Source of the DNA: Acidimicrobiaceae bacterium
GTDB lineage: Bacteria > Actinomycetota > Acidimicrobiia > Acidimicrobiales > RAAP-2
NCBI GenBank assembly: GCA_003162475.1
Contig: PMOI01000017.1
Span: 62,001 to 126,000 of the forward strand
Direction of reading: 5' to 3'
Length of the DNA: 64,000 nt
Part shown: positions 28,750 to 52,800 of the stretch, one piece after another
Position numbering within the stretch: the stretch's first letter is position 1
Layout of the letters: every line of letters starts with the position of its first letter
Translations under genes and position numbers: made by a program
The notes under the pieces: model-generated
The model's database searches: none
What the model was told of the DNA's origin: nothing
Seen by the model: the letters and a program-made list of their open reading frames with translations, nothing else

Positions 28750-29703
28750 TTACCTCTCACGACCAGCTTTCACGCGCGTACGAACCACCGACGGCAGAGA
28801 ACGAACCGTGGGCAACTCGCTCCGGGCTTGTTTCAGACTCAGGTAAAGGGTGACTCGTGGCGCCAGGACGAGGGAAAGTCCAAGAGCGCCAAACATTCCA
28901 ACGTAGTTCTTGCGGGCCCGCGCATCGCGAGCGTAGCGGATCGCCCGCGCCGCACGCCCAGCGGGTACGCGAGGCAAGCCGTGTCGAATTGCTCGAACGT
29001 TGTCTACCTCCCCACGCGCCTCGGCAAAGAACAGATGTTGCCTAAGGATCAATTTCAACTGATCCCCTCCTGACACTGGCAACGACAAGTTTGACCCATG
29101 TCGGCGATACTCCGTCAAGACCTCTGGCAGAAAGAAAAAGGAACTCTCTCGGGCTACGCGATAGAGGAGATCAAGATCTCCGCTGAGCAGAAACAGAGGG
29201 CTGAACCCACCTACATCCTGAATGAGTTCTCGTCTGATCATCGCGGTGGAGATCAAGATGTGTCCATCGGCCCGAAGAAAATCGCGGTACTGAGACTCCT
29301 TCGACTCCCCTTCGCCAATGATCTCCCCATGCTCATCAATGACGCGATACTGCGTGTGACACACACCAACGCTCTCGTCATTCATTACATCAACCTGAGT
29401 CTGGAGTCGATTGGGCAACATTCGATCGTCATCGTCGAGAAGCGCGATAAGACCTGTACGAGCATGTCCGATCCCAACATTTCGTGACACACATTCGCCG
29501 CGGTTCCTCTGTCGGAAGACCCTTACTCGATCATCGTTTCGCTCGATCTCAGATAGATCATCCTCGCACCCATCCAAAACAACGATAAGTTCCCAGTCCT
29601 GAAACGTTTGCGACTGGACGGAAGCAATGGCGTCTCTTAGGAACGCTCCGCCACGAAAGCTGGGAATCACTACGCTCACAACCGGCATGCTGCCTCTCGT
29701 CAT
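28750..29703 (-). CDS. GT2-family glycosyltransferase
   Basis: 317 residues from ATG 29703. Features: 'VSVVIPSFRGGAFLRDAIASVQSQTFQDWELIVVLDG', 'NVGIGHARTGLIALLDDDDRMLPNRL' with the DDDD metal site, 'ISTAMIRRELIQDVGGFSPLFLLSGDLDLLYRVA' and 'TEYRRHGSN'. These are all typical of short inverting GT2 enzymes that add one sugar. The ATG overlaps the stop of a short upstream open frame (29700-29933), hinting that another coding segment once or still precedes it. Confidence 0.87.
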   Translation of the reverse strand: MTRGSMPVVSVVIPSFRGGAFLRDAIASVQSQTFQDWELIVVLDGCEDDLSEIERNDDRVRVFRQRNRGECVSRNVGIGHARTGLIALLDDDDRMLPNRLQTQVDVMNDESVGVCHTQYRVIDEHGEIIGEGESKESQYRDFLRADGHILISTAMIRRELIQDVGGFSPLFLLSGDLDLLYRVARESSFFFLPEVLTEYRRHGSNLSLPVSGGDQLKLILRQHLFFAEARGEVDNVRAIRHGLPRVPAGRAARAIRYARDARARKNYVGMFGALGLSLVLAPRVTLYLSLKQARSELPTVRSLPSVVRTRVKAGRER

Positions 29704-31129: not shown

Positions 31130-32452
31130 GTGGAGTTCTCGGGTATGAACTGGCGACGACACGAGTTTGGACACGGTACGCGAGGCAATCGCTGGTCGTT
31201 GATCGTCTGGGTTAGTGCACTGGCGATCGTGGTGTCCATTGCACTGAGCGTGGTACCTGGGAGCGAAAGTGTCACGGGCGCCTCAACGACGTTGGCTTCA
31301 GTTGTTCACCACGCGACGAGTCCAAGCGTCGCGGTCCCCGACGGTACCCCTTTACTATCGGAACCATCAGGCGAAGCGCCTCCTGGCCCGACGGCCATGA
31401 CGGGGTATAAGCGGACCTACGTCAACGACTTCACCGGCACGAAGGTTCCCTCCGATTGGAATGTCTATGCGGGAGCTCCGGGAAGCGGTGATCCCGGATC
31501 GCAGTGGGCCGCGAACCACGTGGTCGTGAGCGGCGGACTCTTGCAACTCAACACCTGGCAGGACCCGGCTTTTGGGGGCAAATGGGTGACCGGCGGCGTG
31601 TGTCAATGCGGGCTTACTAGTACGTACGGCGCCTACTTCGTTCGATCGAGAGTGACGGGCGCCGGACCCACGCAGGTTGAACTGTTATGGCCGACGACGG
31701 GGTGGCCGCCAGAGATTGACTTTAACGAAACGGACGGCTCGACTGGCTTCTCAATGGCTACCCTGCACTTCGATTCAAACAATGACCAAGTCCACAGCAC
31801 GATTAACGCCGATATGTCACAGTGGCACACGTGGGGCGTGATCTGGACGGCAACTTCAGTCTCGTACACGTTGGACGGTAAAGTCTGGGCAGAAGTCGAC
31901 GTACCGGCCGAGGTTCCCCACCAGCCGATGACTCTCGACATTCAACAGCAGACTTGGTGTGACGTCGCGCCGAATCCGAACAGTCCGAGTTCTTGTCCCA
32001 CCACACCCCAGTCAACGCTGGTCGATTGGGTCGCAGAGTACAGTGCTGTCGACACAAGCACCACCACCACCACGACGACGACAGCTGCTCCTACGACGCT
32101 CGCGCCGACGAGTGCGTTCACCGTGAGGCCGTTCGCTGCGAATTCGGCGTCACTGTCTCCGAAACTTAAGAGTCAGATTGCGGACTTGGCGAATCAAATT
32201 GTCTCCAGCAGCGATTCGAAAGTTGTGCTCACTGGCTACAGCGACAGTGCGTCGTCGGAGGCCACGTCCCTCGCAGTCAGTAGGGCGCGAGCCTTAACCG
32301 TTGCGAAATACCTGAAACGGTTGCTGACCGACCGTCACGTGAACGGCGTCAAAATCGCTACAGCGGGCAAGGGAAGCGCGAAGCCAGTCGCTTCAAACGC
32401 GACGCCCTTGGGACGAGCGAAGAACCGAAGAGTCGTCGTCACTCTCAATTGA
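31130..32452 (+). CDS. secreted GH16-type protein 2 with C-terminal OmpA-like domain
   Basis: 440 residues from GTG 31130, with AGGAGA 12 nt upstream; ATG 31145 is an alternative. A signal/anchor helix (~22-48, 'SLIVWVSALAIVVSIALSVV') and a short linker lead to the GH16 domain (~80-300). That domain has 'CQCG', 'YGAYFVRSRVTGAG', 'WPPEIDFNET' (~residue 195) and 'QWHTWGVIWT'. A Thr-rich linker is followed by an OmpA C-like domain (~325-440): 'VVLTGYSDSASS', 'VSRARALTVAKYL', 'AGKGSAKPV', 'GRAKNRRVVVTL'. OmpA-like domains bind peptidoglycan, so the enzyme may be held at the cell wall. Confidence 0.87.
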   Translation: MEFSGMNWRRHEFGHGTRGNRWSLIVWVSALAIVVSIALSVVPGSESVTGASTTLASVVHHATSPSVAVPDGTPLLSEPSGEAPPGPTAMTGYKRTYVNDFTGTKVPSDWNVYAGAPGSGDPGSQWAANHVVVSGGLLQLNTWQDPAFGGKWVTGGVCQCGLTSTYGAYFVRSRVTGAGPTQVELLWPTTGWPPEIDFNETDGSTGFSMATLHFDSNNDQVHSTINADMSQWHTWGVIWTATSVSYTLDGKVWAEVDVPAEVPHQPMTLDIQQQTWCDVAPNPNSPSSCPTTPQSTLVDWVAEYSAVDTSTTTTTTTTAAPTTLAPTSAFTVRPFAANSASLSPKLKSQIADLANQIVSSSDSKVVLTGYSDSASSEATSLAVSRARALTVAKYLKRLLTDRHVNGVKIATAGKGSAKPVASNATPLGRAKNRRVVVTLN

Positions 32453-32524: not shown

Positions 32525-33406
32525 TCATCTCCAGCTAACCTGTCGCTGCCGTATCCTCAGAAACACTAGAGATACCCGCGTCATCCCCGTCACAAACAGA
32601 TAGGTGATGAGCGGCAGAATGTCAGAGGGACGGACATCCTTCGTCCATTGCGTCAGCGTTTCGAGCTTCGTTGACTGACTGCCACTGGTGTGCGCCCCTT
32701 CGGTAGAGTCCACACCGTCTATAACTTGCTCGTGCACGAAGTACGTGGCAGCTTGTCGGTTTCCCTTGGCTACTCTGGTTTCGTTTCGTATCAGTTGGCG
32801 AAGAGATGCCGGCGTCCAAATCGTCACGAGTGCCCCCGGTACGATTGCTTTCTCGATCTCGTTGTATTGAGAGTCGAAGAATTTGTCATCGGCGAAAAGT
32901 GGTGGGAATCTGTCGAATCGTTTGCGAGCTTCACGACTCGCGCCGTAGACACCGCGTCCCACCAAATGGACGTCGAGCCACTTGCTCATCACCAGGCTCT
33001 CCAGGGACCGATAGTACTTTTTCACCCCCCAGGATCCGCGTTCAACGTCGTATTTGACTATTGGGCCTGCCACAACGAGCTTGTCAGTGGTGAGTTGTCG
33101 GACAAGGTGCTCTATCGAAGAGGAGTCGATGCGGATATCGGCGTCGCAGTACAGCCGAGGGAATATGTCATCCGCGAGTCGGTCACCCTCGTTCAGCGCG
33201 AAGTGCTTGCCGACGTCCTCGATCTCGACAACGTGAACTCCTTGGAACTCCTCGGCGACCTCCCGCGTCCGATCGGTGCATCCATTGCAGATGACGAAGA
33301 CTGCGTATTGGCCCTGCTGTGAAGCCTCCGAAAGCGATTGCAGAAGACCCCGGATGCGGTGCTCCTCATTGTGGGCTGGAATCACAATGGAGGCAAGCGG
33401 TTCCAT
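32525..33406 (-). CDS. GT2-family glycosyltransferase in phosphoramidate operon
   Basis: 293 residues from ATG 33406. 'ASIVIPAHNEEHRIRGLLQSL', 'VFVICNGCTDRTREVAEEF', 'YCDADIRIDSSSIEHLV' (DxD) and a C-terminal hydrophobic helix (~265-285, 'ILPLITYLFVTGMTRVSLVFL') suggest membrane contact. It is the fourth gene of a minus-strand set after the kinase, hydrolase and nucleotidyltransferase genes, separated by 136 nt. In C. jejuni the corresponding place is held by the Cj1415 kinase. A role in adding the sugar that is modified, or in transferring the modification, is inference. Confidence 0.8.
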   Translation of the reverse strand: MEPLASIVIPAHNEEHRIRGLLQSLSEASQQGQYAVFVICNGCTDRTREVAEEFQGVHVVEIEDVGKHFALNEGDRLADDIFPRLYCDADIRIDSSSIEHLVRQLTTDKLVVAGPIVKYDVERGSWGVKKYYRSLESLVMSKWLDVHLVGRGVYGASREARKRFDRFPPLFADDKFFDSQYNEIEKAIVPGALVTIWTPASLRQLIRNETRVAKGNRQAATYFVHEQVIDGVDSTEGAHTSGSQSTKLETLTQWTKDVRPSDILPLITYLFVTGMTRVSLVFLRIRQRQVSWR

Positions 33407-33542: not shown

Positions 33543-34310
33543 TCAGTTTTTGGAGATTGGATGCTCTGATTCAACGATCTTTCGTTCCAGTTCGTCGAGT
33601 TCGCGGACAAACTGAGTGCCCGATTCGATGTCACCAATGGTGTCGAACTCAAACCAGGGGTCTGGTGTTGCGACACACTTGACAGGGCAGACGTTGTTCT
33701 TAACTAAACGCTCCAACAGATGCGTCATGCTCGATATCTGGGTTGACTCAACAACGGCTCGGATCTTGTTCACGGCAGACGGACGAATCAAGAGCAGTCC
33801 CATGTACTGGCCCTCAATTTCTGCAAGGTCAGTCGCGCGTCGACCGATGTCCGTCAGATACTCGTCCGACGTTAACGTGAAGGTCTCAGCATCCGAGAGT
33901 GGATCCTCAAATCGCAAACTCCACTTCTCCAACCACTGCTGGTCGTAGGCGATGACGAGGTCGTCATCGCAGGCCATCATCCTTTGAACGACGTCACGCC
34001 CGAAAATGATGTCGGCGTAGGAGACGAAAACGGGTTCTCCCTCGAACCAAGATTCTGCCGATAAAAGGCTATCGACCATGGTCGTTGTCTCCCAGTTGGG
34101 GTTGGAGTACAAGGGCAATCCCAGCGGGCGCAGTCCGTCGATCTGCCATCCACCAACAATGGCGACGTCCGTGATGCCCGCGAGCGCCAACGCGCTCAGT
34201 TGACGATCCAGAAGTGTCCGCCCATCGATCTCGACGAGACCTTTTGGTCGGTCCGAGGTAAGCGACGCCATTCGCGAGCCTCGTCCCGCGGCAAGAATCA
34301 ATCCCTTCAT
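33543..34310 (-). CDS. sugar-type nucleotidyltransferase, Cj1416-like (CTP:phosphoglutamine cytidylyltransferase candidate)
   Basis: 255 residues from ATG 34310, whose A is shared with the TAA of the upstream gene. N-terminal signature 'MKGLILAAGRGSRMASLTSD' and 'RPKGLVEIDGRTLLDRQL', then 'YADIIFGRDVV' with the metal-binding Asp, and 'PWFEFDTIGDIESG'. The LicC/RmlA-like family normally uses CTP or dTTP. Length and neighbours match C. jejuni Cj1416 (~250 residues), which joins CTP and L-glutamine phosphate to give CDP-L-glutamine. LicC-type phosphocholine cytidylyltransferase is the alternative, but the kinase and amidohydrolase next door favour the phosphoramidate route. Confidence 0.75.
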   Translation of the reverse strand: MKGLILAAGRGSRMASLTSDRPKGLVEIDGRTLLDRQLSALALAGITDVAIVGGWQIDGLRPLGLPLYSNPNWETTTMVDSLLSAESWFEGEPVFVSYADIIFGRDVVQRMMACDDDLVIAYDQQWLEKWSLRFEDPLSDAETFTLTSDEYLTDIGRRATDLAEIEGQYMGLLLIRPSAVNKIRAVVESTQISSMTHLLERLVKNNVCPVKCVATPDPWFEFDTIGDIESGTQFVRELDELERKIVESEHPISKN

Positions 34311-34909
34311 TACGCTGCGCCGAAATGGTGTCGGACCAACTCGGTCGCGGACGGATTGTTTGGCCATTCCCTCTCGGGGTGCCACATGACGCCAAGCACC
34401 CTTCCGTCGGGCGTTGCGAGTGCTTCCAACACGGTGCCCGCCCACGCCAAGCCAACGAGTGACGCCGACAAATCATTGACGGCCCAGTCGTGATAACACG
34501 TCACCGAACCGGTCATCAGGGGGCCTTCAATACTGTTCACGGCTCCGACGTGCCCCTCAGTTCGAACCAGTGAACAGCCCATTGTGTCGGCAATGAGTTC
34601 CATACCGCGACAGACTCCGAGGAGAGGCATTTTTGCTTCGATCGCCCACGACAAGAGCAGCCGCTCCGTTTCGTCTCGGTTTGGGCAGTCTCCCCCGTAG
34701 TTGGCAAGGTCGCCCCCTCCGGACAAAATAATGCCGTCGAGATGTAGTTCTTTCGCCGTCGAGAGCGCCAGACTCGGAACGTTCGGGAGTGGTACGGCCA
34801 GGATTCCGTAGGCCCAAAGTACGTGAGACCAGCGTTCGTCAAGTGCAAAACGAACCTCTCCCGTCGAGGTCACGGGCAGCTGACGTTGAGTAATTCCGAC
34901 TTTCTTCAT
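34310..34909 (-). CDS. class I glutamine-amidotransferase-like hydrolase, Cj1417-like (gamma-glutamyl-CDP-amidate hydrolase candidate)
   Basis: 199 residues, ATG 34909 overlapping the kinase stop. A GATase-1/peptidase C26 fold: 'DGIILSGGGDL', nucleophile elbow 'LLGVCRGMELIAD' with Cys, and 'GVMWHPEREW' with the His-Pro-Glu of the triad. PuuD-like enzymes split gamma-glutamyl bonds. In C. jejuni Cj1417 (~200 residues) removes glutamate from CDP-L-glutamine, leaving cytidine diphosphoramidate. It is placed between the kinase and the nucleotidyltransferase with overlaps on both sides, as expected for consecutive pathway steps. Confidence 0.8.
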   Translation of the reverse strand: MKKVGITQRQLPVTSTGEVRFALDERWSHVLWAYGILAVPLPNVPSLALSTAKELHLDGIILSGGGDLANYGGDCPNRDETERLLLSWAIEAKMPLLGVCRGMELIADTMGCSLVRTEGHVGAVNSIEGPLMTGSVTCYHDWAVNDLSASLVGLAWAGTVLEALATPDGRVLGVMWHPEREWPNNPSATELVRHHFGAA

Positions 34910-37200
34910 CGAGTGACTCGCACGAAACCAGCGGCACAGTCGAGTTCAATCGAATGAGCGTTTCGGTACGAGGCAAATCGATTCGGGCCAACACCCGTCA
35001 CGGTCGGAATTCCCAACTCTTGCGCCCGTATCGCCATATGTGAGTTGACGCCTCCGTACGCGGTTATCAACCCCACGATTCCCGTGGTGAACAGCCAGTC
35101 GAACCCGGGATCCGCGCTACTGATAAGGGCGATCGCACCCTTGACGTCATCACCGCGGTCGACGTCGGCGACCCTACCGATAACACGCTTTTTTGTGACG
35201 TAGTTCGGGTCGATATTTGGCACCAAGAAATCGAAAAAGTTGTTGGGCGACGTGACAAAAGATGGGAGAAGAATTGAACTCGTGAGCTCGTAATCGTCAC
35301 GCTTTTCTGCGATAAGGCGAGAGAAGAACTCGTCGGAGTTGCCGTTCATTTCTTGACCGGCAAGAATCGATTGAATTGGAAGAAAGGAAACGTCCTCTCT
35401 CGAAAGTCCATGGTGCTCAGCGAAATTGTTGACCAGGTTAAGTAGGTGGCTTACCTGCTTCGAGTACTCGAACTTTCCCCACTCGCGATTTCGAATGGAA
35501 GATTGTATGAACTCAATGAGAACGTCCGGCGTCCCTGCAATGTGATCTTGCGCCATGAGTAGCGCTATTGCGTCGCGTTGGGGATCAGTGAGGCTGAAGG
35601 CTCCCTTTGTCGAGCTCGGGAGATCGCCGCCGGCGTCTTGACCGAAGTATCGCTCGGGGTCCTCTGCGTACGAAGGCGCGCAAATGTCGTAGGTACCCGG
35701 GCGAAGGTGTCCGTAGAGGGAAAGAAACTCCTCTCGCCCCAACCGGTGAAAATCAAGCAACATGTCCTGGGTGACCGATTTGAGACTTCCCATGAGCCTC
35801 TCGAGATCATCAGAAGAGAGAATTTGCCTTTCCACTAGGCCCTTCAGGAGTTTGCTTCCGATGAATCCGGCCCTCGCAAGTCCCGCGAACGGGAACCCGC
35901 CAGAGTCCCGGCAACTTACAAGGGCACTTTGAATATCCGTCGCTTCAAGGGTCCGCGACTCTTCTAGCAATTTCCGGTCACGGCGCCAGGTCGTCTCACC
36001 AGAAAGCACGTCGTTTGTCAGTTCAACTAAAGAAAGGTGAAGTTCGTTAACGTCGTCTTCACTAAAACCTTCTGAACGCAGCTTTGCCATTTGATCTGAA
36101 AGTCCAAACGCGTTACACGTTGTGACGATCTCAAACTCAACCTTGTCATGCAACTCAGGTGACGCAAGAAGTTTCCGCGAGTAATACTCGCTGAGTCGCG
36201 CCACCAGCCCCTCGTTCACGGCGCTCGGTGTAAACGAGTAGAAATCGGCTCGAACGTCTATGTAGTGAAGTCCGCCGAAATTCACCATAAGAGGGGTGCC
36301 GCGCATATCGCGGTATCCGTACGACGTCCTCGAGGCCGCCCACGCTTCATCCGTGATGAGAGCCTCGTACAGTGACGCCGCGAGTTGACGGGGCTTCTCC
36401 CCAATCATTTCCGCTGGATTCCAATCACACATGGACGAGTAGATCGGCGCACCGGCCAATGACGTGCCGTCACTTCGTTGCTTCAGACCCTTCGAAAGAC
36501 TCCGTAGAGCCTTCGCGTGCCTGCTGGGAGACACCGTCGAGGGCGATACGACGAGCGGACGGGCCTGAAGAAGAATCGTGTCGCGCTTACTATTGATCGC
36601 GAATTCCACCTCGAATCGCCCCTCTCCCGTCAGCGCCTCGATTTCATCAAGAAGAGCCAACAAGGGTTTGAGAGGATCTGGAAGAGCCACGGGCTTTCGA
36701 AATGGTACGCCGACCCAATTCTCAACGTCGTCAGCGTTCCCCATCGTGACTTTGGTGGTGTCGGTGCCTTCGTGCCACGAAATCACGCGATACGGTGCGG
36801 CGGTACTCGGGTCGCAACTACAAGCAACGCCGCTGTAAAGGGCGTCCACGACCTCAGGTTGAATGAGGACTTCATCGTCGTCATGAAGTCGTCCGTACGA
36901 CTCGACGACCTCAGCGACGGACTGAATAATGTGGGCTCGTCCATTCACGTTCAATACAGAGCTGAACTGACCCGCAAGAGATTGGGTGTGAGAATCCTCA
37001 CCCATTGCCGAACTTCGTACGACCAGAGGACCCGCACTTGACCAAGACAACTTCTCGATCAGCTGCAGAACGGCGTCCCTGTCTCGTTGCCACTCACCTA
37101 CCGAGAAGACAAAAACGGGGAGAACTTGGGCAGAAGTCAGCACCGCGGCCAGCGCCCGCAGGGTCCCTGCCTTCGAACCGAATTGAACTTTCAGCGTCAT
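34906..37200 (-). CDS. PEP-synthase-like kinase, Cj1418-like (L-glutamine kinase candidate)
   Basis: 764 residues from ATG 37200. An N-terminal ATP-grasp part has 'PLVVRSSAMGEDSHTQSLAG' and 'FEVEFAINSKRDTILLQARPL'. There is a long middle region without the PEP/pyruvate TIM barrel, and a C-terminal phospho-histidine domain 'GGVNSHMAIRAQELGIPTVTGVG' with the swivelling His. Normal PEP synthase or PPDK adds a PEP-binding barrel, which is absent. The ~767-residue Cj1418 of C. jejuni has the same build and phosphorylates L-glutamine. The stop overlaps the hydrolase ATG. First gene of the operon; upstream lies a 653 nt divergent region. Confidence 0.82.
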   Translation of the reverse strand: MTLKVQFGSKAGTLRALAAVLTSAQVLPVFVFSVGEWQRDRDAVLQLIEKLSWSSAGPLVVRSSAMGEDSHTQSLAGQFSSVLNVNGRAHIIQSVAEVVESYGRLHDDDEVLIQPEVVDALYSGVACSCDPSTAAPYRVISWHEGTDTTKVTMGNADDVENWVGVPFRKPVALPDPLKPLLALLDEIEALTGEGRFEVEFAINSKRDTILLQARPLVVSPSTVSPSRHAKALRSLSKGLKQRSDGTSLAGAPIYSSMCDWNPAEMIGEKPRQLAASLYEALITDEAWAASRTSYGYRDMRGTPLMVNFGGLHYIDVRADFYSFTPSAVNEGLVARLSEYYSRKLLASPELHDKVEFEIVTTCNAFGLSDQMAKLRSEGFSEDDVNELHLSLVELTNDVLSGETTWRRDRKLLEESRTLEATDIQSALVSCRDSGGFPFAGLARAGFIGSKLLKGLVERQILSSDDLERLMGSLKSVTQDMLLDFHRLGREEFLSLYGHLRPGTYDICAPSYAEDPERYFGQDAGGDLPSSTKGAFSLTDPQRDAIALLMAQDHIAGTPDVLIEFIQSSIRNREWGKFEYSKQVSHLLNLVNNFAEHHGLSREDVSFLPIQSILAGQEMNGNSDEFFSRLIAEKRDDYELTSSILLPSFVTSPNNFFDFLVPNIDPNYVTKKRVIGRVADVDRGDDVKGAIALISSADPGFDWLFTTGIVGLITAYGGVNSHMAIRAQELGIPTVTGVGPNRFASYRNAHSIELDCAAGFVRVTR

Positions 37201-37853
37201 TTCAGCATCAATTTTCAAGGGAGTAGTCCGCCAGCGAGTTGAGCACGCCAACCTGTCGAAATACGCGCCAATCGTCGAGCCTTAGCCAGAAAAGTCATTT
37301 GCTCAACCATGATCAATGCTACCCTTCGCCAAATCCCAGGTAAATAGGGTGAAACTGCCCGACTCATCAGGGCGCCGCGAGAGAATCCGTCACGGCGAAT
37401 CCTCATTTTTGAGAATATGGCAAAAAAGTAGGATCGGCGACGAATTAATCAGAGTTTGGATGTCTTCTTGAGCGCGTACTCTCTAACAAAAATGTGTCCG
37501 CGGGGGCCTTGCGTGTCGCACCCTCGTCGCAGTGCCAACACCAAGAGTTCGCACCGTTTAGGGATTCGCGCTCGTCGCGTTGTCATCGTCTAGACAGCTT
37601 CGCGATGCTCGGGTCCCGTCACCGCCGTCAATTGCTGAGATTGTTAGTCGACATTGCGGGTTGTTGACGCGCGAGACGAACCGGCGCGAGTACCAGAATC
37701 CACCGATGAATGGTAAATTCAATCGAACATCCCAAGCTTGGGAGTACCACGACATATCTTGATTTTCACAGATTGCACAAACTGGGCAGTAAGGCGACTG
37801 GGCCGTTGGGCCATACGAGCCAAGAGAAAGTTGAAAATGAAAGGTCTCGTGCG
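37201..37853. promoter_or_regulatory. divergent intergenic region, phosphoramidate operon / GT2 paralogue B
   Basis: 653 nt. The 12 bp perfect palindrome CCCAAGCTTGGG at 37731-37742 lies 112 nt before the GT2 start and could be an operator. On the minus strand 37215-37406 is an open 63-codon frame (ATG 37406) ending 14 nt before the kinase start, basic and leucine-rich, without a ribosome site; a leader peptide or remnant is possible. AT-rich stretches around 37400-37490 may hold promoters. Confidence 0.4.
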
Positions 37854-39065
37854 ATGAACGATCCCAGCCCAGTGAGATTGGTTCGAGTCGAGATTGATGG
37901 TGATCGAGGTGCTGTCAAACTCAACTCATTCCCGGGTGACAGAATCTGGGTGGAAGTGGCGAAGGGCGGTCAAGTTGTTGGGATGGTCGAGAGGTCCGCG
38001 GACGACGTCGGCCTAGCTGCCTCAGTTCTTGAAGAGTTGGCCGAAGAGTACGCAAACTTCGAACCGTCATCGTACGCGTCGTTTCCAGACAATCTTCTAC
38101 CGAAGGCCTCGATAGTCGTTCCCACCATCTACCGGCGCACCGACCACCTGAATCGGACGGTTGAGTCGCTGCTCGCACTCGATTATCCGGACTTTGAGAT
38201 CGTCGTTGTGGACAATCGTCCGGGCGTCAACCATGATCCAATACCGGAGTTCACGGGTGACGGTCGCGTCCGCGTGGTGTTGGAAACCTCGATCGGAGGT
38301 TCAGCCGCTCGCAATCGAGGAATCGCCGTCACGACCGGGGAGTTCATCGCGTTCACAGACGACGACGTCATCGTTGACCGGAACTGGCTACGTGCGCTTG
38401 GTGTGAGATTCGCACTTGATGAGGACGTGGACGCAATAGGTGGAATGGTTCGCCCAACGGATCTCGAAACGAGACCTCAGTTGTGGTTTGAGGAGTTCTA
38501 CGGCGGCTTCACGAAGTCATTTCTGGCGAGAAAGTGGAGCACCAAGATCGTCGCTGACTCGGACCCATTATTCCCCTACTCTGCCGGACACTTCGGAGCG
38601 GGATGCAACATGGCGGTTCGTCGCTCGGCCTTTCAGCGATACGGCGGCTTTGATGTTCGTGTCGGTATTGGTACGAAGGCGAAAAGTGCCGAAGACTTGA
38701 AGGTATTCATCAACATTTTGCTCGGCGGAGGAACGGTTGCGTACGAACCGACGGCGCTTGTTCGCCATTCGCACCGCAGGTCTAGTCACGAATTCATGAT
38801 CCAGGTCTTCGGCTACGGAACAGGGTTGACGGCTATGTACACGTCGCTCGTTCTCGATGACCCCCGCAGACTCGTGACCATCCTTCGAAAAGTTCCCTTG
38901 GGTCTCAAAATGCTGCTGCGCCCCGAGGAACGACTGTCGCCCAGCAAATTAACGAGTTTTCCTCGTAGAACCAAGGTCTACCAACTTCTAGGAATGGCCT
39001 ATGGCCCCTTCGCGTACCTGCGAAGCGTCGTCTCCATGCGTAAGTCAAGGTCGCAGCTGCCGTAA
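37854..39065 (+). CDS. GT2-family glycosyltransferase with N-terminal extension (paralogue B)
   Basis: 403 residues from ATG 37854, with AAAGG about 10 nt upstream. Same architecture as the 20158-21417 product. It has a beta-rich N-terminal module ('VRVEIDGDRG', 'RIWVEVAKGGQVVGMVE') and then 'ASIVVPTIYRRTDHL', 'IVVVDNRPG', 'SAARNRGIAVTTGEFIAFTD' running into DDDVIVD, and 'GHFGAGCNMAVRRSAF'. The long stretches of identity mean a duplication within the locus. Probably adds a different but related sugar. Followed by the PIG-L gene on the same strand. Confidence 0.86.
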   Translation: MNDPSPVRLVRVEIDGDRGAVKLNSFPGDRIWVEVAKGGQVVGMVERSADDVGLAASVLEELAEEYANFEPSSYASFPDNLLPKASIVVPTIYRRTDHLNRTVESLLALDYPDFEIVVVDNRPGVNHDPIPEFTGDGRVRVVLETSIGGSAARNRGIAVTTGEFIAFTDDDVIVDRNWLRALGVRFALDEDVDAIGGMVRPTDLETRPQLWFEEFYGGFTKSFLARKWSTKIVADSDPLFPYSAGHFGAGCNMAVRRSAFQRYGGFDVRVGIGTKAKSAEDLKVFINILLGGGTVAYEPTALVRHSHRRSSHEFMIQVFGYGTGLTAMYTSLVLDDPRRLVTILRKVPLGLKMLLRPEERLSPSKLTSFPRRTKVYQLLGMAYGPFAYLRSVVSMRKSRSQLP

Positions 39066-39165
39066 GGTCGGCTGAAATCGAATCGCCCGAGACCTGGTAT
39101 CAACTGCAGAAAGCGCGTTGGAGAATGGATAGATATTGGCAGGCCGAGGGAGACGGAGCGGGTCG

Positions 39166-39882
39166 ATGACAAAATTTTCACCACTGCAGCCAATAGTCGT
39201 GATTTCGACCCATCTCGACGACGCCGTACTTTCGTGTGCACAGTTCATCCACGCGCACTCTGACGTGACAGTGATAACCGTATTGGCTGGTGCTCCGGAT
39301 GCGTTCCATGAGGGGTACAACAGCCGGACCACCGGTGAGCCATTCGCTCCCAACGCAATCAAGAAACGGCGAGATGAGGACGCGGAGGCCATGTCGATGC
39401 TCTCGGCTCACTACGTGTGGTTGGAATTTCATGACAACGACTACTTACAAGTGCTTACCCGGTCCGACGACAAACAAGAGATTCGAGACGCACTGAGCCA
39501 AGTTCTCGAAGAGAGACGCCCCAAATCAGTTCTGTCACCGCTGGGACTGTTTCACCCCGATCATCTTGCCGTGAGCGACGCCTGTCTCGAGCTCGCCAAA
39601 AAGTCAGCGTACGAGTGGTATCTCTATTTGGATATGCCGTACGGCTTGGCGATGCCAAAAGCGGTGCCCGAGCGACTCGCAACGGTCGAGAAGACTGTCA
39701 ACCTGGCGACTCCTGAGTTATTCTCCGGCGACCCCGACATCAAGCGCAACGTCATGAAGCTGTACGCGACACAGTTCGCCCCAACGAAAAGCAACCACCG
39801 GAGGGGATTTAGAGCGACGATGAAAGCGCCCGAACAGTTCTGGAAGATCACTGGTCCAGCTTCTGGCTCTAATCGTTCATAA
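39166..39882 (+). CDS. PIG-L/LmbE-family deacetylase
   Basis: 238 residues from ATG 39166. The family metal motif appears as 'VVISTHLDDAVLSCAQFI' (usually HPDDxxL; here H-L-D-D), with 'SPLGLFHPDHLAVSDA' providing the second HPDH site. Such zinc enzymes remove N-acetyl groups from GlcNAc-type sugars in glycolipids, mycothiol or polysaccharide. In this cluster it would deacetylate an amino sugar of the surface glycan (inference). 100 nt after the GT2 gene. Confidence 0.85.
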   Translation: MTKFSPLQPIVVISTHLDDAVLSCAQFIHAHSDVTVITVLAGAPDAFHEGYNSRTTGEPFAPNAIKKRRDEDAEAMSMLSAHYVWLEFHDNDYLQVLTRSDDKQEIRDALSQVLEERRPKSVLSPLGLFHPDHLAVSDACLELAKKSAYEWYLYLDMPYGLAMPKAVPERLATVEKTVNLATPELFSGDPDIKRNVMKLYATQFAPTKSNHRRGFRATMKAPEQFWKITGPASGSNRS

Positions 39883-40038: not shown

Positions 40039-41367
40039 GTGCGAAATATGACGTGGCGATCGATCGTGGTTGATTTGAGGGCCCGCTTACGTCCTGGACG
40101 TCTCGTACAGAACGCGATCGCCTTGATGATTTCGGCTGGAGGCACCGCGGTCATCGGAGTGGTCTTTTGGGGAGTAGCCGCACACTTGGCTTCGACCGCA
40201 ACAGTCGGCCGCACCACGGCTGAGATCGCGGCGATGTTGCTTCTGGCAAACCTCGCGCAGCTGAGTTATGGATCAATCTTTGAACGATTCCTTCCCGTAG
40301 CCGGAAAGTTAACGCGCGATTTCGTCATGCGGGCTTACGTCACGTGCGTCGGCTTTGGATTCATTTTGGCAGTCTCGTACCTGGTGTTGGGATTCGGTCA
40401 TCGTTTCTTGCCAACGTCTTTGGGCTGGAGGACCCTCTTTGTCGCGGCCGTCGTACTCTGGACAATCTTCGCCTTGCAGGACTCCGTACTGATTGGCCTG
40501 AGAGCTTCTCGGTGGGTCGCGGTAGAGAACATTGCCTATGCGCTGGCGAAGCTTGGCCTGTTACCCGCGTGCATCTTCATCACTTCGAGCCAAGGAATCT
40601 TTGTGGCGTGGACCGTGCCGGTCGTGGTGACGGTCATAGCGGTGAGCTGGTACCTGTTTCGTAAACGTATCCCGGAACACATGTCATTGACTGGAATAAC
40701 TGAGACTCTTCCTTCGACGCGCGATCTGGTCTTGCTCGCTGGCGCGCAGTACACCGCATTACTCTCGGCCGTTTTCATGCCATCGCTCCTCTCGCTCATC
40801 GTGATTCAACGGCTGGGAGCGGTCGCCAATGCTCATTTCTTTCTCCCGACCATGATCTCGAGTGGCGTCGGCCTCTTCTGTTGGAGCATCGTCCGGTCTT
40901 TTCTCGTTGAGGCCTCGCATGAGCCAGGGGAACTCCGCGGTCACGCAAACTCCGCCATTCGCGCGCTCGTCGTGGTGCTCGTGCCGAGCGTGGTGCTTGG
41001 CTACATCTTTGCTCCCGAGTACCTTCGGATATTTGGGGCTTCGTACTCGACCCATGGAACGACACTCATGAGGATGTTGCTGTTGTCGCTTCTGGGTAGC
41101 GCCGTGATGGTTTTCTACAGCACTTTTGCGTGGCTGGATAAACGTGTGTGGTGGATGACGGCGCGCAATCTCGCCAGTAGTCTGATCCAGCTCGGAGTGG
41201 TTCTTGTTCTTATCGGACATCTCGGCATCGAGGCAATTGGTATCGCAGCATTAGTAAACGCGGCCATTACGTTGATTGTCTTTGTCCCAATATCGGTCCG
41301 TCGATATCGAATGACGGGCGTGGGCACAACTCCAGGTGCCGACGAGCCATCATCGGTCGTCGAATGA
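40039..41367 (+). CDS. Wzx-type polysaccharide flippase (paralogue 2)
   Basis: 442 residues from GTG 40039; ATG 40048 is the alternative. About 12 membrane helices. It shares extended blocks with the flippase encoded at 26085-27350, for example 'GVVFWG.AAHLASTATVGR', 'GSIFERFLPVAGKLTRDFV', 'WTIFALQDSVLIGLRASRWV' and 'LMRMLLLSLLGSAVMVFY'. Having two flippases fits two export routes or two different repeat units. It is convergent with the LicD-like gene, 51 nt apart. Confidence 0.86.
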   Translation: MRNMTWRSIVVDLRARLRPGRLVQNAIALMISAGGTAVIGVVFWGVAAHLASTATVGRTTAEIAAMLLLANLAQLSYGSIFERFLPVAGKLTRDFVMRAYVTCVGFGFILAVSYLVLGFGHRFLPTSLGWRTLFVAAVVLWTIFALQDSVLIGLRASRWVAVENIAYALAKLGLLPACIFITSSQGIFVAWTVPVVVTVIAVSWYLFRKRIPEHMSLTGITETLPSTRDLVLLAGAQYTALLSAVFMPSLLSLIVIQRLGAVANAHFFLPTMISSGVGLFCWSIVRSFLVEASHEPGELRGHANSAIRALVVVLVPSVVLGYIFAPEYLRIFGASYSTHGTTLMRMLLLSLLGSAVMVFYSTFAWLDKRVWWMTARNLASSLIQLGVVLVLIGHLGIEAIGIAALVNAAITLIVFVPISVRRYRMTGVGTTPGADEPSSVVE

Positions 41368-41418: not shown

Positions 41419-42099
41419 TCAGTCGAGCCACGATGTATCGGTATTGACCCACGGTTGCGTACTCACCATGTTTGGTCCATCACTCAAGTAATTCCAACCA
41501 CTGTGCGGAGTACGCCAATCCCCGTAATTTAACTCGAGTTCGCGTTCGTAGTCTTCGTGACGAAGCCACGAACGACCGAGGAACTCGAAGTGCACAAGCT
41601 TTTGCACTGGCAAGCGCTTTTCGACCTCGACGAGCTGGTCGGGTGGCCAACCGAACATGAAATACTGAAGTTCATCTTCACGGGGGAAGAAGACAGAAAA
41701 ATCGTAGATGGCTCGGCGTCGAAGAAACATAAGTTCGACAAGCACGCCGTCGTTCGTTCGGAACTGCCTGTAAGGACGGAATCCCGCCTTCGAGAGCTTT
41801 GGCACCGCACGCATTAAGCGCGGAACGTCGTCCGGAAGTATGCCAAAGTCGGCGTCGCGATCACGAGGCAGCAGTTTTCCCTCGCGAGCCCATCCGAGAA
41901 GCATGCCCGAAAATACCCAATATCGTCCCTCAAGTTCAGTTTCCTCGAGTACGTCGTGAAATCGGGCGAGGCCTCTCTCGAATTGGTACGCAAAAAATCG
42001 TCTGTTCAATGTTGGGAGAAACCGATCGAAGCCCGGCACGCGCATAAGCAGTTCGTACAACGATGCGATTACCCCTCTTCCTTCTTTGTTTTCGCTCAT
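41419..42099 (-). CDS. LicD/fukutin-like phosphotransferase
   Basis: 226 residues from ATG 42099. The core reads 'YWVFSGMLLGWAREGKLLPR' followed by D-R-D-A-D-F-G-I, that is, aspartates 80, 82 and 84. This matches the LicD/fukutin-related pattern (G-x-LLG-x-R-x-G-x-L-x-P-x-D-x-D-x-D) of nucleotidyltransferase-fold enzymes. LicD moves phosphocholine from CDP-choline to sugars. Since a CDP-phosphoramidate-type operon lies 4 kb away, this protein is a candidate for transfer of a CDP-linked group to the glycan (inference). No ribosome site is obvious. Confidence 0.72.
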   Translation of the reverse strand: MSENKEGRGVIASLYELLMRVPGFDRFLPTLNRRFFAYQFERGLARFHDVLEETELEGRYWVFSGMLLGWAREGKLLPRDRDADFGILPDDVPRLMRAVPKLSKAGFRPYRQFRTNDGVLVELMFLRRRAIYDFSVFFPREDELQYFMFGWPPDQLVEVEKRLPVQKLVHFEFLGRSWLRHEDYERELELNYGDWRTPHSGWNYLSDGPNMVSTQPWVNTDTSWLD

Positions 42100-42860
42100 G
42101 AACGTCGGCCTCGTACTTCAGTAGTCAGATCTGCTTCGTATCCTAGATAGAGCGCGAAGCGAAACTCCAAATGATTATCCGAACGGCCAAGCGTTTCGCC
42201 GAGGGAAACGATTTTCCGGCTGATCCGCCGCGTTGCGAGCGTCGACGTAGCCGAACACTAGACGTCGTGGACTTCGTCGACGGGCTTGTACGAATGCGCG
42301 AAAAGGACAAAAGACGAATGGTCGTTTCATCGAACTTCTTTCGACACAAGTGAAGTGGCTCGAGATTCACGCTGAGCGCCAGCGACCGCAGTAACCGGTC
42401 CAGTCGCCGTCGCACGCACACGTCTTGCTACGGTCCTCGGCAACGTTAAATAACGATGCCGTTCGATCTGTCGACCGCGACACGCGCTCGAACTCGACTC
42501 GTGCCTACCGGTGAACACGAATATGTTGTCCGCCAGGTGTAAAGTCTGGCCGGCACGATCGGGGACGATGAGCCTCTGGCCGTGGCGGGTGAAAATGGAC
42601 AATCCCAAACTTGCTCACGACGGAGCTTCACGATCGCCGCGTACTGTCAGCCTCCACCGGCGTTCTATCCAGGTAATCGGTCTCATGCGTGAAAACGTGA
42701 TTACCGGTGTAAAGACTGCTCCAGCGTCGGACGCAAGGCGGACCGAGGTCTGTTGCGCAGGAGCACTTCGAGATCGCATCGCGGATCCAAGCAAGTACCT
42801 ATTTCAAGGACCTTGGGCGGCGCTGAAGGGTTACTGCCCTTCAATCGATGGCTCACTAAC
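42100..42860. promoter_or_regulatory. 761 nt intergenic region upstream of GH16 gene 3
   Basis: No certain gene. A plus-strand 60-codon frame (42171-42353) has protein-like text ('LDVVDFVDGLVRMREKDKRR') but no ribosome site. Regulatory-looking items are a direct repeat GGTGTAAAG(T/A)CTG at 42536-42548 and 42706-42718, an inverted repeat GGTAATC/GATTACC at 42672-42678 and 42699-42705, and a hairpin TGAAGGG-6 nt-CCCTTCA at 42824-42843 just before the GH16 start. Long for a simple promoter. Confidence 0.4.
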
Positions 42861-43760
42861 ATGAAAACCGACATGATCAATCAATCAGAGGCTGCTCCGG
42901 TTCGTCCGTCGCACAATCGACAAAGCCCCTGGAACGCTCGCATCGTTGTGATCACCGTTATAACGGCAAGTATTGCGATTCTGGTGACGGTTCTCTTCGC
43001 GATAAATTCCGCCGGTAACTCTACGTTTAAGCCCACCCCCCCCTCCGCACACGGTGGGTACCCAGTGGGCATCAAGGCCACTGATGCGCCCTCGGGGGAC
43101 AATCCTCCTAGCTCGAACGCACTCGCTGGCTACAGCCTCACGTACGTGGCCAACTTCGATGGCGCGTCACTTCCTCCAGGCTGGAACATTTTCACGGGTA
43201 TTCCCGCGGGCTCTCCCGGGGGGCAGTTCGCTAGCTCCCACGTGGTGGTCAGCGGAGGATTGCTGCGGCTCAATACGTGGAAGGATCCAAATTTCCAAAA
43301 TCGATGGGTCACGGGCGGACTTTGTCAGTGTGGCCTACGCAAGGTGTACGGGGCATACTTTGTCCGCTCTCGAGTCACTGGAACTGGCCCCAATGAAGTC
43401 GAACTACTCTGGCCCGCGTCAAACATTTGGCCACCGGAGATCGACTTCAATGAGACGGGTGGAACGGTGGACGCTACGTCGTCGACTCTGCACTACGGCC
43501 CAATAAATCTCATCGAGCAGCGATTCGTCACCATTGACATGGAGCAGTGGCACACCTGGGGAGTGATCTGGACGCCCAAAGCAATCACGTACATCGTCGA
43601 CGGTTCGGTCTGGGGAACCATCGCCGCCGCCGACGAAATTTCCGCCAAGCCAATGACCCTCGACTTTGAGCAGCGCCAGTTGTGTGAAATAGGCCAGCAG
43701 TGCCCGACCCGTCCCGTGTCCATGTTGATTGACTGGGTGGCGGAGTACACCGCAAAGTAA
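42861..43760 (+). CDS. GH16-type protein 3, membrane anchored
   Basis: 299 residues from ATG 42861. A cytoplasmic ~25-residue tail precedes a single membrane helix (~28-52, 'IVVITVITASIAILVTVLFAI'), so it is anchored with the enzyme outside. The domain carries 'CQCG', 'YGAYFVRSRVTGTGPNEVEL', 'WPPEIDFNETGG' (~residue 193), 'QWHTWGVIWTP' and ends 'DWVAEY'. Without linker or OmpA part it is the most compact of the four paralogues. Convergent with the epimerase gene. Confidence 0.84.
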   Translation: MKTDMINQSEAAPVRPSHNRQSPWNARIVVITVITASIAILVTVLFAINSAGNSTFKPTPPSAHGGYPVGIKATDAPSGDNPPSSNALAGYSLTYVANFDGASLPPGWNIFTGIPAGSPGGQFASSHVVVSGGLLRLNTWKDPNFQNRWVTGGLCQCGLRKVYGAYFVRSRVTGTGPNEVELLWPASNIWPPEIDFNETGGTVDATSSTLHYGPINLIEQRFVTIDMEQWHTWGVIWTPKAITYIVDGSVWGTIAAADEISAKPMTLDFEQRQLCEIGQQCPTRPVSMLIDWVAEYTAK

Positions 43761-47618: not shown

Positions 47619-48506
47619 TCAACGCGGGGTGTACTCGGCCACCCAGTCAATCTGCATGGACTCTGGCGCAGTGGGACATTGACGGTGTTCTTGACATTCC
47701 TGTCGCTGCTCGAAGTCGAGCGTCATCGGCACGCTCGAAATATCGGAAGCAACTCTCAACTGTCCCCACAGTCGTCCGTCCACTGTGTAGAGAATGTAGT
47801 GAGGCGTCCAGATGACACCCCACGTATGCCACAGCGTCATGTTGATATCCACTTTGGAACGAACGACGTTATTGGTCGCACCGTAGTGAACCGAACTTGT
47901 GCTCGACGCGGCTGTCCCACCCGTCTCGTTGAAGTCGATCTCTGGCGGCCAGGTGTTGTTCGATGGCCAGAGCAGTTCCACCGCGGTCGGACCGGGGCCG
48001 GTTATTCGAGAGCGAACGAAGTACGCACCGTAACGTCGGGCGACACCGCACTGGCATATCCCTCCGGTGACCCAACCGTTGTGCCACGCCGGGTTCCGAT
48101 AAGTGTTGAGTTGGAGCACACCATTGGCCACCACCACATGGGAGATGCCGAAGTGCCCACCGGGATCACCGCCGGGAATTCCAGTAAAGACGTACCATCC
48201 CGGAGGAACCCTTCTCCCCGTGAAGTCGTTTTCGTACCTGAGGGCGTAGCCCACCAGAGCTTGCGCCCCGGGAGGAGACTCTCCCGACGGCTCCGCACTG
48301 TCAGGCGTACCGGTTGGGTACGAGCCATTGACGTTCAGCGGCGAGACGCGCGCTGGTGAACTTTGGGCGTTCGCAGCCACGGGCCACTGAACGGAGAGAG
48401 ACGCGACGATGACGCCGATCATCGCGACGACGGTGACCTGACATCCCACTCGACTGGTTTTCGCCACTCTTAGCCCCAAACGGGCGTACGCACGGGGTGA
48501 ATTCAT
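47619..48506 (-). CDS. secreted GH16-type protein 4
   Basis: 295 residues from ATG 48506. A signal peptide (~18-47, 'GCQVTVVAMIGVIVASLSVQWPVAANA') is probably cut after ANA. The GH16 domain has 'CQCG', 'YGAYFVRSRITGPGPTAVEL', 'WPPEIDFNETGG' (~residue 188) and 'LWHTWGVIWTP', ending in 'DWVAEY'. Secreted without anchor. It is divergent from the HTH gene at 48872. Confidence 0.85.
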   Translation of the reverse strand: MNSPRAYARLGLRVAKTSRVGCQVTVVAMIGVIVASLSVQWPVAANAQSSPARVSPLNVNGSYPTGTPDSAEPSGESPPGAQALVGYALRYENDFTGRRVPPGWYVFTGIPGGDPGGHFGISHVVVANGVLQLNTYRNPAWHNGWVTGGICQCGVARRYGAYFVRSRITGPGPTAVELLWPSNNTWPPEIDFNETGGTAASSTSSVHYGATNNVVRSKVDINMTLWHTWGVIWTPHYILYTVDGRLWGQLRVASDISSVPMTLDFEQRQECQEHRQCPTAPESMQIDWVAEYTPR

Positions 48507-49832: not shown

Positions 49833-52800
49833 ATGACGACGAGGGCGTATTTAGCCAGGGGCGCCGCATTTCTATGCGTTATTTCCCTTTCATTTGCCGC
49901 CACCATCGCTTTGGCGCCCTTGGCGTCGGCCGCTCCGACCGCCGCGATCACCCAGCCCGGTACGGGCAACACCTACAACGTGAACCAGGTCGTGGGCACG
50001 ACCTTCTCCTGCACCGAGGACCCCTCGGATCCGGGCATCTCCTCGTGCTCCGACGGCACCAGCTCGTCGGGCAGCGGCGTGCTCGACACTTCAATACCGG
50101 GCAACTTCACCTACACCGTCACCGCCACGAGCGGTGACGGTCTGACGTCCGGTACTGCGAGCATCTCCTACACCGTCGCGGCCGCTCCGACCGCCGCGAT
50201 CACCCAGCCCGGTACGGGCAACACCTACAACGTGAACCAGGTCGTGGGCACGACCTTCTCCTGCACCGACAGCACCTTCGGCCCGGGAATCAACTCGTGC
50301 TCCGACAACAACGGTGGCTCTGGCACCAGCGGCGTGCTCTACACGTCGACGCCGGGCAACTTCACGTACACCGTCACCGCCGCGAGCGGTGACACCCAGA
50401 CCGGCACGGCGAGCATCTCTTACACCGTCGCGGACCCTCCGACCGCTCCGACTGCCACGATCGCCTCGCCCAACTCGGGCAACACCTACGGCGTGGGCCA
50501 GTTCGTGGGCACGACCTTCTCCTGCACCGAGGGCGCCTTCGGCCCGGGAATCAACTCGTGCTCCGACAACAACGGTGGCTCTGGCACCAGCGGCGTGCTC
50601 TACACGTCGACGCCGGGCAACTTCACGTACACCGTCACCGCCGCGAGCGGTGACACCCTGACCGGCACGGCGAGCATCTCCTACACCGTCGCGGCCCAGA
50701 GCACCGTCTCGATCACCAACTCGGTGCTCTCAAGGAGCGCTACTGGGACCTTCGCCCTCACCGCCGCCGGCGGCTCGGGCACCATTGCCTACGTCTTCCA
50801 GACGATCTCGGCTGGCTGTTCGATCAGCGGCACCACGCTCTCGTTCACGGGTAGTTCGCTGCCGACCAACTGCGTCGTGACCGTCTACAACCCGGCCAAT
50901 GGCGTCTACCCTCAGTCGAACACTGCCTCGAAGACCTTTACCTTCACGACAGCAGCGCCGACCTCGGTCTCGATCACCAACACGGTGCTCTCGGCGAGCG
51001 CTACTGGGACCTTCGCCCTCACCGCCGCCGGCGGCTCGGGCACCATTGCCTACGTCTTCCAGACGATCTCGGCTGGCTGTTCGATCAGCGGCACCACGCT
51101 CTCGTTCACGGGTAGTTCGCTGCCGACCAACTGCGTCGTGACCGTCTACAACCCGGCCAATGGCGTCTACGCACAGTCGAACACTGCCTCGAAGACCTTT
51201 ACCTTCACGACAGCAACGCCGACCTCGGTCTCGATCACCAACACGGTGCTCTCGACGAGCGCTGCTGGAACCTTCACCCTCACCGCCGCCGGCGGCTCGG
51301 GCACCATTGCCTACGTCTTCCAGACGATCTCGGCTGGCTGTTCGATCAGCGGCACCACGCTCTCGTTCACGGGTAGTTCGCTGCCGACCAACTGCGTCGT
51401 GACCGTCTACAACCCGGCCAACGGCGTCTACGCACAGTCGAACACTGCCTCGAAGACCTTTACCTTCGCCGCGAACGGCGGCGGAGGCCCGGGCGCTTCT
51501 ACAACCATCACTCAAACATCGCCGACAAAAGGCGTAACCACGGCGAAGGCATCGAGCACCTTCAACCCCGGTTCCATCGCCGTCACGAACAATACCGGCG
51601 CCGTGACCTTCGTCACGACCGTGTCGAGTACAGGTCTTACGCTCATCGGCAACCAAATCTCTACGACTGGCGCTCTGAGCGACGGCCAGTACACGATCTC
51701 GGGTACCGACAGCGACACGAGCGGCGACATCGGCACGTGGACGTACACTCTCACGGTCACGAACGCCATCGTTCAAACGTCGCCGACGACGGGTGTCACG
51801 ACGGCGTCGGCATCGAGAACTTTCAACCCCGGTTCCATCATCGTCACGAACAACACCGGTGCGGTGACCTTCGTCACGACCTTTCCAAGTACAGGCCTTG
51901 GCGTTACCGGTGGGGGTGTCGTCACGACAAAGGGCACGTTGGTCGCCGGTTCATACACGGTCTCGGGTACCGACAGCGACACGAGCGGCGACATCGGCAC
52001 GTGGACGTACACTCTCACGGTCAGCAACCCCGCGGTCACGGTGACCTTCGACGCCAACGGTGGGAAGGGCACGATGACGGCGGAGCGTCACAACACGTCA
52101 ACGGCGTTAACGAGCAATCGATTCACGCGCACCGGATACACCTTCGTCGACTGGAACACCGCGGCGAACGGTTCTGGCGCGACCTACGCGAACGGCGCTA
52201 TGTATCCCTTCACGAAGAGCACGACCCTCTTTGCGCAGTGGCGCATTGGTAAGGCGGTCGCTCACCGCGTCACGTTCAACGCCAACGGCGGTGCTGGTGC
52301 GATGGCCGTAGAACGTGAGAACACGCCAACAGGTTTGACCGGCAATCGATTCACCCGCACGGGGTACACGTTCGTCGACTGGACTACGGCGGCCAACGGA
52401 TCGGGCACGACCTACGCGAACGGCGCCACCTATCCCTTTAGAAAGTCCACCACGCTCTACGCCCAGTGGAAAGTCGTCAAGACCACTACCGTCACGTTCC
52501 TCGCTCACGGCGGTAGAGGCGCGATGCCCGTGGAACACAACGCCTCGCCAGCGGCGTTGACGATCAATCGATTCACCCGCACGGGGTACACGTTTGTCGA
52601 CTGGACTACGGCGCCCAACGGTTCCGGCGCTAGATACGCGAACGGCGCTACGTATGCCTTCACTTCTTCGACAGCGTTGTACGCCCAATGGCGGCGCCAC
52701 AAGGTCGTCGTGATACCGGCCATTCCCGCAACAGCCAGCGTTGGACCTTTCGCTCTTAAGTCATCGACGCTGTCGCCGGCCTTGGAAGCGCAGATTGGAG

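Follow-up and report, generated by a model that had tools for sequence, protein, structure and literature searches.

The window analysed here, a 64,000-nucleotide stretch of an Acidimicrobiaceae genome (assembly GCA_003162475.1, contig PMOI01000017.1, positions 62,001 to 126,000), carries in a glycan locus three overlapping genes, called the trio below, for a predicted L-glutamine kinase, a class I glutamine amidotransferase (GATase) and a nucleotidyltransferase (NTase), together with a separate gene for a LicD/FKRP-like protein. In the reading preferred here, which is given a probability of roughly 0.6, glutamine, ATP and CTP would be turned by the trio into cytidine diphosphoramidate (CDP-NH2), from which the LicD/FKRP-like protein would move phosphoramidate straight to a sugar of the surface polymer of the locus, so that this polymer is predicted to bear the group. 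Direct observation covers the genes with their families and order, the lack of a Cj1415-like fourth enzyme in the searched assemblies, and a predicted model's fold match. The kind of pathway is known, and it is the missing 3′-kinase and the LicD/FKRP-type candidate together that are new.

An earlier note on this DNA had described three overlapping minus-strand genes at 33543-37200, and their coordinates, lengths and overlaps are borne out. The kinase gene (34906..37200, minus strand) encodes 764 aa from an ATG, or 781 aa from an alternative upstream TTG, and overlaps the GATase gene (34310..34909, minus strand, 199 aa) by 4 bases (ATGA), which in turn shares 1 base (TAATG) with the NTase gene (33543..34310, minus strand, 255 aa). 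The kinase (P0001) resembles phosphoenolpyruvate (PEP) synthase without the barrel, as had been noted: at E 0.001 Pfam finds only a partial PPDK_N and the PEP-utilizers (swivel) domain, and no PEP/pyruvate barrel. With the NCBIfam model NF004508 it scores 757.1 bits (cut-off 501) over residues 4-761, compared with at most 59.7 bits for PEP synthase models and 48.6 bits for RIF_Ptrans_rph (cut-off 999), the cut-offs for PEP synthase and rifampin phosphotransferase (RPH) being at least 598. A closer match to these ordinary enzymes, which the earlier note had named as a reason to abandon its assignment, was not found, and both are ruled out by the NCBIfam scores. The likeness to them consists in the ATP-binding and phosphohistidine swivel domains, whereas the middle domain differs. 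NF004508/PRK05849, which we take to be the Cj1418 type, is labelled hypothetical in NCBIfam, and "glutamine kinase" is the third-party name of 8 of the 120 kinase relatives listed. An alignment of 21 rows, made up of P0001 and 20 of the 120 homologues listed, shows invariant residues in the swivel domain (H721) and in the middle domain (M257, D259-E264, H351-K353 and H498-P501). The AlphaFold2 model (pLDDT 84.6) was used for the domain order only, its top whole-chain fold match being a weak one to RPH (TM 0.40). From the family scores, the protein is a predicted L-glutamine kinase.

The best NCBIfam match of the GATase (P0002) is NF045546 with 91.9 bits (E 5.4e-26). This model was matched by all 51 trio GATases scanned (P0002 and 50 of the 76 found; best E 6.1e-40), for example with 98.8 bits at L076 and 109.2 bits at L021, where L-numbers denote loci. 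The Cys-His-Glu set of a GATase-1 enzyme, as claimed before, is kept: C100, H177 and E179 are invariant in the alignment of 51 rows, and the motifs are GVCRG and MWHPER. The NTase matches PF12804 and fits the consensus GXG(T/S)RX4-8PK (from a passage in PMC6697681), which is present in 74 of the 76 locus NTases scoring above 200 bits. With a profile of trio NTases it reaches 286 bits and is the only window open reading frame (ORF) matched, while the NTase-CobD-like fusions of the same genus score 91 and 94 bits and the second NTases of two other loci 184 (L048) and 86 (L079). Its description as LicC-like thus agrees with family, consensus and profile. No specific NCBIfam family was found for it, and L-glutamine-phosphate cytidylyltransferase is the third-party name of 21 of its 120 listed relatives. 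At L079 (Treponema, 7101-9842), the trio is followed by a second NTase, which is fused to a 2-aminoethylphosphonate (AEP) transaminase.

The spread of the trio was assessed by scanning named-species genomes (one-genome-per-species contigs) with the kinase alignment, which gave at least 560 relatives, the best 80 of which were kept. Loci were fetched by the kinase alone and partners were counted anywhere in the fetched stretch (at most about 10 kb on each side), using profiles built from members of the same loci and Pfam labels from example members. Among these best 80 loci, 77 have the GATase, 76 the NTase and 74 both; the association of the three genes exceeds chance. The record titles name organisms of many phyla, and the trio is widespread in bacteria and not peculiar to Campylobacter. 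A match of more than 100 bits to a kinase like that for adenosine 5′-phosphosulfate (APS), near or fused to the trio kinase, occurs in 70 of the 80 loci, a methyltransferase in 65, a sulfotransferase-like gene (Sulfotransferase_3-like, e.g., L021 6660-7850) in 21, of which 20 also have the APS-kinase-like gene, and a CysQ/inositol-phosphatase-like gene in six. By analogy, the gene set of the 80 loci fits a 3′-phospho-CDP-NH2 donor, a molecule like 3′-phosphoadenosine 5′-phosphosulfate, as made by C. jejuni Cj1415-Cj1418. The Sulfotransferase_3-like genes are a candidate transferase family for this donor. Six of the 120 listed kinase relatives carry an APS-kinase domain within the same chain (P0053, P0070, P0084, P0094, P0096, P0119).

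Some kinase relatives stand in other settings. In Paenibacillus agilis (L022 8743-22319), kinase and GATase occur without NTase or 3′-kinase, beside apparent acyl-carrier genes and adjoining a sulfotransferase-like gene; a phosphoramidate natural product is possible for this pair. On a Cupriavidus plasmid (L121 7947-18301), a kinase homologue lies near a thiamine pyrophosphate enzyme, an annotated histidinol-phosphate transaminase and nifK, and the GATase and NTase profiles match nothing in that stretch. The kinase family therefore has other contexts. Furthermore, MT837632, deposited as phage, encodes a 1011-residue kinase-GATase fusion (L119 652-3687) on a contig with bacterial-looking genes; as a Campylobacter source it was rejected on account of the fusion and this setting.

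Close relatives of the window trio are few. In the genome of the window (G000; 2.79 Mb) and in G027, a different species of the same genus carrying the locus L003, the kinase was found at E 1e-30, and in no other of the 99 genus genomes; among 396 genomes drawn from the phylum it was found only in G000 (E 1e-60). A quick tree with 86 kinase rows (7 database proteins and 79 of the 81 locus kinases; L025 and L053 left out) joins the kinases of the window and L003 and the database relative P0005 on a long stem (0.96) within an actinobacterial group. In this group, the APS-kinase-like gene is present at L002, L032 and L072 and absent at L005. P0005, the NTase P0172 and the LicD-like protein P0127 are each encoded on a JGI contig that is 78,274 bases long, which points to a likely third carrier.

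The reading of the trio as a module of the Cj1416-Cj1418 type is supported by kinase score, NTase profile, third-party names and gene neighbourhood, and it very probably makes CDP-NH2. The next enzyme of the Campylobacter route is missing, as had been noted before. The Cj1415-like (APS-kinase-like) profile matches nothing among the window ORFs or in L003, and at the expected place, downstream of the NTase gene, stands a gene for a family 2 glycosyltransferase (GT2; 32525..33406, minus strand, PF00535). Profile searches of the window and L003 likewise found no methyltransferase, sulfotransferase-like or CysQ-like gene. At genome level, PF01583 has no match in G027 and two weak ones in G000. Those two were rejected as APS kinases: shikimate kinase matches them better (37.1 and 38.9 vs. 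28.8 and 21.3 bits), and the Cj1415-like profile gives them just 24.9 and 19.5 bits. PF13469 gave no match in five genus genomes including G000 and G027. The fourth enzyme is thus absent from the searched assemblies and, with 3′-kinase, methyltransferase and sulfotransferase-like gene missing at the window locus and L003, the route after CDP-NH2 must differ from that of C. jejuni. In total, 10 of the 80 loci have no 3′-kinase match above 100 bits. In four of these (L008, L053, L075, L077), the stretch beyond the kinase is shorter than 1 kb on one side or both, and L003, L005, L022, L025, L071 and L079 remain.

The candidate for the last step is the LicD/FKRP-like protein of 226 aa (41419..42099, minus strand), a predicted CDP-NH2:glycan phosphoramidate transferase. 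Its predicted model matches an FKRP-type NTase fold, and the metal-binding Asp residues are invariant. Among 81 loci, its family profile has a clear match only in the window and L003. In the 99 genus genomes, a LicD-like gene was found in eight (G000, G027, G023, G001, G524, G545, G534 and, as a stop-bearing copy, G004), seven of them intact. Two of the genomes, G023 and G001, carry instead of the trio an NTase-CobD-like fusion, located about 0.5 kb and about 2 kb from the LicD-like gene, respectively. All four genomes with either module, trio or fusion, have the LicD-like gene (Fisher p 1.9e-5 for the eight carriers and 9.3e-6 for the seven intact ones, in a test that ignores kinship). By analogy, the CobD-like half of the fusions could make an amino-alcohol phosphate, and a CDP-amino-alcohol is the likelier product of these proteins; for C. 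jejuni Cj1436, a conversion of serine phosphate to ethanolamine phosphate is described in part of PMC11800397. A homologue of the flippase-like protein of the window adjoins the LicD-like gene in G027 (L110) and G534 (L127). The odds appear even that CDP-NH2 is the direct donor from which a LicD/FKRP-family enzyme decorates a surface glycan of an actinobacterium with unmethylated phosphoramidate, and that sister species supply the same LicD-like gene with different, exchangeable CDP-X modules.

The proposed route would comprise four steps. The kinase would phosphorylate itself on His721 from ATP and then transfer this phosphate to glutamine, at its amide nitrogen; the cytidylyltransferase would convert phosphoglutamine and CTP to gamma-glutamyl-CDP-amidate; and the GATase would take off glutamate, which would yield CDP-NH2. 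As the locus has no 3′-kinase, sulfotransferase-like gene or methyltransferase, the LicD-type enzyme would then take CDP-NH2 itself as substrate, and the phosphoramidate that it leaves would be unmethylated. Direct use of CDP-NH2 by this protein is slightly favoured.

Several observations weigh against this reading. Within the trio, the GATase score lies below the NF045546 equivalog cut-off of 250; since the model is matched by all 51 trio GATases and its best E is 6.1e-40, the cut-off seems fitted to a narrower group, and the protein is predicted to work like a gamma-glutamyl-CDP-amidate hydrolase, while the equivalog name does not hold. Others have called 22 of the 120 listed NTase relatives choline kinase and, leaving aside the window's own entry, the three closest bear the name choline kinase or phosphocholine cytidylyltransferase family protein. 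The earlier note had named a closer match of the NTase to phosphocholine enzymes with choline genes as a finding against its assignment: the names of the nearest relatives are indeed choline-type, whereas the profile groups the protein with the trio. Gene neighbourhood and profile score decided for a predicted CTP:phosphoglutamine cytidylyltransferase despite the conflicting names.

For the transferase, the Pfam match is marginal, PF04991 scoring 23.9 bits in the window (cut-off 22.6) and only 19.7, 14.5 and 15.4 bits in L003, G023 and G001, respectively. In the window, 4.2 kb with plus-strand genes separate the LicD-like gene from the trio, and in L003 the gene adjoins the trio in convergent orientation. 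Three of the seven intact LicD-like carriers, G524 (71% complete), G545 (87%) and G534 (88%), are without either module, and the stretches read of their LicD contigs hold no NTase of the trio type; in G524, the LicD-like gene stands beside AMP-ligase and acyl-carrier genes. Trio loci L005, L022, L071 and L079 are without a nearby 3′-kinase and also without a LicD-like neighbour. This includes L005 (Streptomyces), which belongs to the same actinobacterial kinase group, was read for 10 kb on each side and has no PF04991 match in its genome; the L071 genome has six PF04991 matches, which may lie away from the trio. Finally, the two assemblies are incomplete (G000 94.6%, G027 about 85%). Two broader ideas were rejected. 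One would restrict intact LicD-like genes to genomes with a CDP-X module; it fitted the first 81 genomes, five of which have the LicD-like gene (G000, G027, G023, G001 and, as the stop-bearing copy, G004), and is contradicted by the three exceptions among the 99 genus genomes. The other would make LicD a regular companion of trio loci that have no 3′-kinase; PF04991 was matched in 5 of the 49 genomes searched (for 49 of the 80 loci), and the profile of the window's LicD family is clearly matched at just the window and L003 among 81 loci, which speaks against such a rule.

It is conceivable, though rather unlikely, that the trio makes CDP-NH2 and another protein of the locus, GT2-like or unassigned, is the transferase, with the LicD-like protein adding, e.g., phosphocholine, ribitol phosphate or glycerol phosphate. 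The three genomes with an intact gene and no module imply that the LicD-like gene has further settings besides these two modules, the window proteins starting at 30008, 22655, 21482 and 18893 have no Pfam match, and according to a passage in PMC9561416 the transferases of C. jejuni (Cj1421, Cj1422) were initially annotated as glycosyltransferases. However, the trio-NTase profile matches no second ORF of the window, and the LicD-like gene accompanies the CDP-X module in every one of the four genus genomes that have one. That the Campylobacter route is complete, with the 3′-kinase and its transferase in an unassembled part of the genome, would accord with the incomplete assemblies and with the 3′-kinase being nearby or fused in most trio loci; it is improbable, as no convincing copy exists in two assemblies of different species, and both loci also are without the methyltransferase and sulfotransferase-like genes, which elsewhere, where present, are in most cases no more than a few kb away from the trio. 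An action on a different N-phosphorylated amide, or the supply of a small phosphoramidate metabolite and not a glycan, is suggested by the Paenibacillus pair and the kinase homologue near nifK, but is very improbable with both genus trio loci lying among glycosyltransferases and a flippase-like gene.

The surroundings of the trio contain further glycan genes. On the plus strand follow a GT2 glycosyltransferase (37710..39065, PF00535), a PIG-L family deacetylase-like protein (39136..39882, PF02585) and a protein that looks like a flippase (40039..41367; PF01943 at E 0.1 only), whose gene is convergent with the LicD-like gene; another GT2 gene lies on the minus strand (28750..29703, PF00535). 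The G + C content of the trio (0.55-0.59) is similar to that of its glycan neighbours, and composition was thus uninformative for a recent foreign origin. The glycan region of the window also encodes four proteins with a glycoside hydrolase family 16 domain (16432-17712, 31130-32452, 42753-43760, 47619-48506), one of which also carries an OmpA domain. A 1082-residue protein with three stretches of Listeria-Bacteroides repeats and an OmpA domain is encoded in the window at 49833-53081.

In C. jejuni, the fourth enzyme adds the 3′-phosphate, and other proteins are the transferases. LicD relatives use CDP-choline or CDP-ribitol and release CMP. With the C. jejuni genes for capsular O-methyl phosphoramidate (Cj1415-Cj1418), the window, judged by family models and order, has in common three of four predicted enzyme kinds, the kinase-GATase-NTase order and the glycan locus, while it has a LicD/FKRP-like candidate instead of Cj1415-like 3′-kinase, methyltransferase and sulfotransferase-like gene. 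In the Lic pathway (LicC, LicD) and in FKTN/FKRP with CDP-ribitol, a PF12804 cytidylyltransferase likewise makes the CDP donor, and an NTase-fold transferase would likewise move a phospho-group to a sugar with release of CMP; the window differs in its donor module of glutamine kinase and GATase, in the moved group, which would be phosphoramidate, and in the marginal LicD match. PntC, which activates phosphonates with a PF12804 NTase and an AEP transaminase, is also a LicC-like NTase for CMP-linked decoration, and the G023 and G001 fusions are built alike, except that their pyridoxal phosphate half is CobD-like; the window NTase has no such half.

To our knowledge, enzymes that make P-N bonds have rarely been described. 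P-N groups are called rare in a passage of PMC6429109, and a passage in a 2022 review (PMC9561416) describes the glutamine kinase as "C. jejuni-specific". In excerpts of PMC11800397, Cj1415-Cj1418 make 3′-phospho-CDP-NH2, and Cj1419 and Cj1420 have no function assigned. In the literature search, no paper joining LicD with phosphoramidate and no report of a wide spread of the trio were found. For Xanthomonas campestris and Shewanella, lipopolysaccharide with unmethylated phosphoramidate has been reported (cited in part of PMC3907429), which makes the predicted group chemically plausible on a bacterial glycan. Were the preferred reading true, transfer could proceed without the 3′-phosphate, and phosphoramidate would be among the groups that a LicD/FKRP-type enzyme can move; within one genus, two genomes with the trio and two with the fusion share the transferase and offer a testable set.

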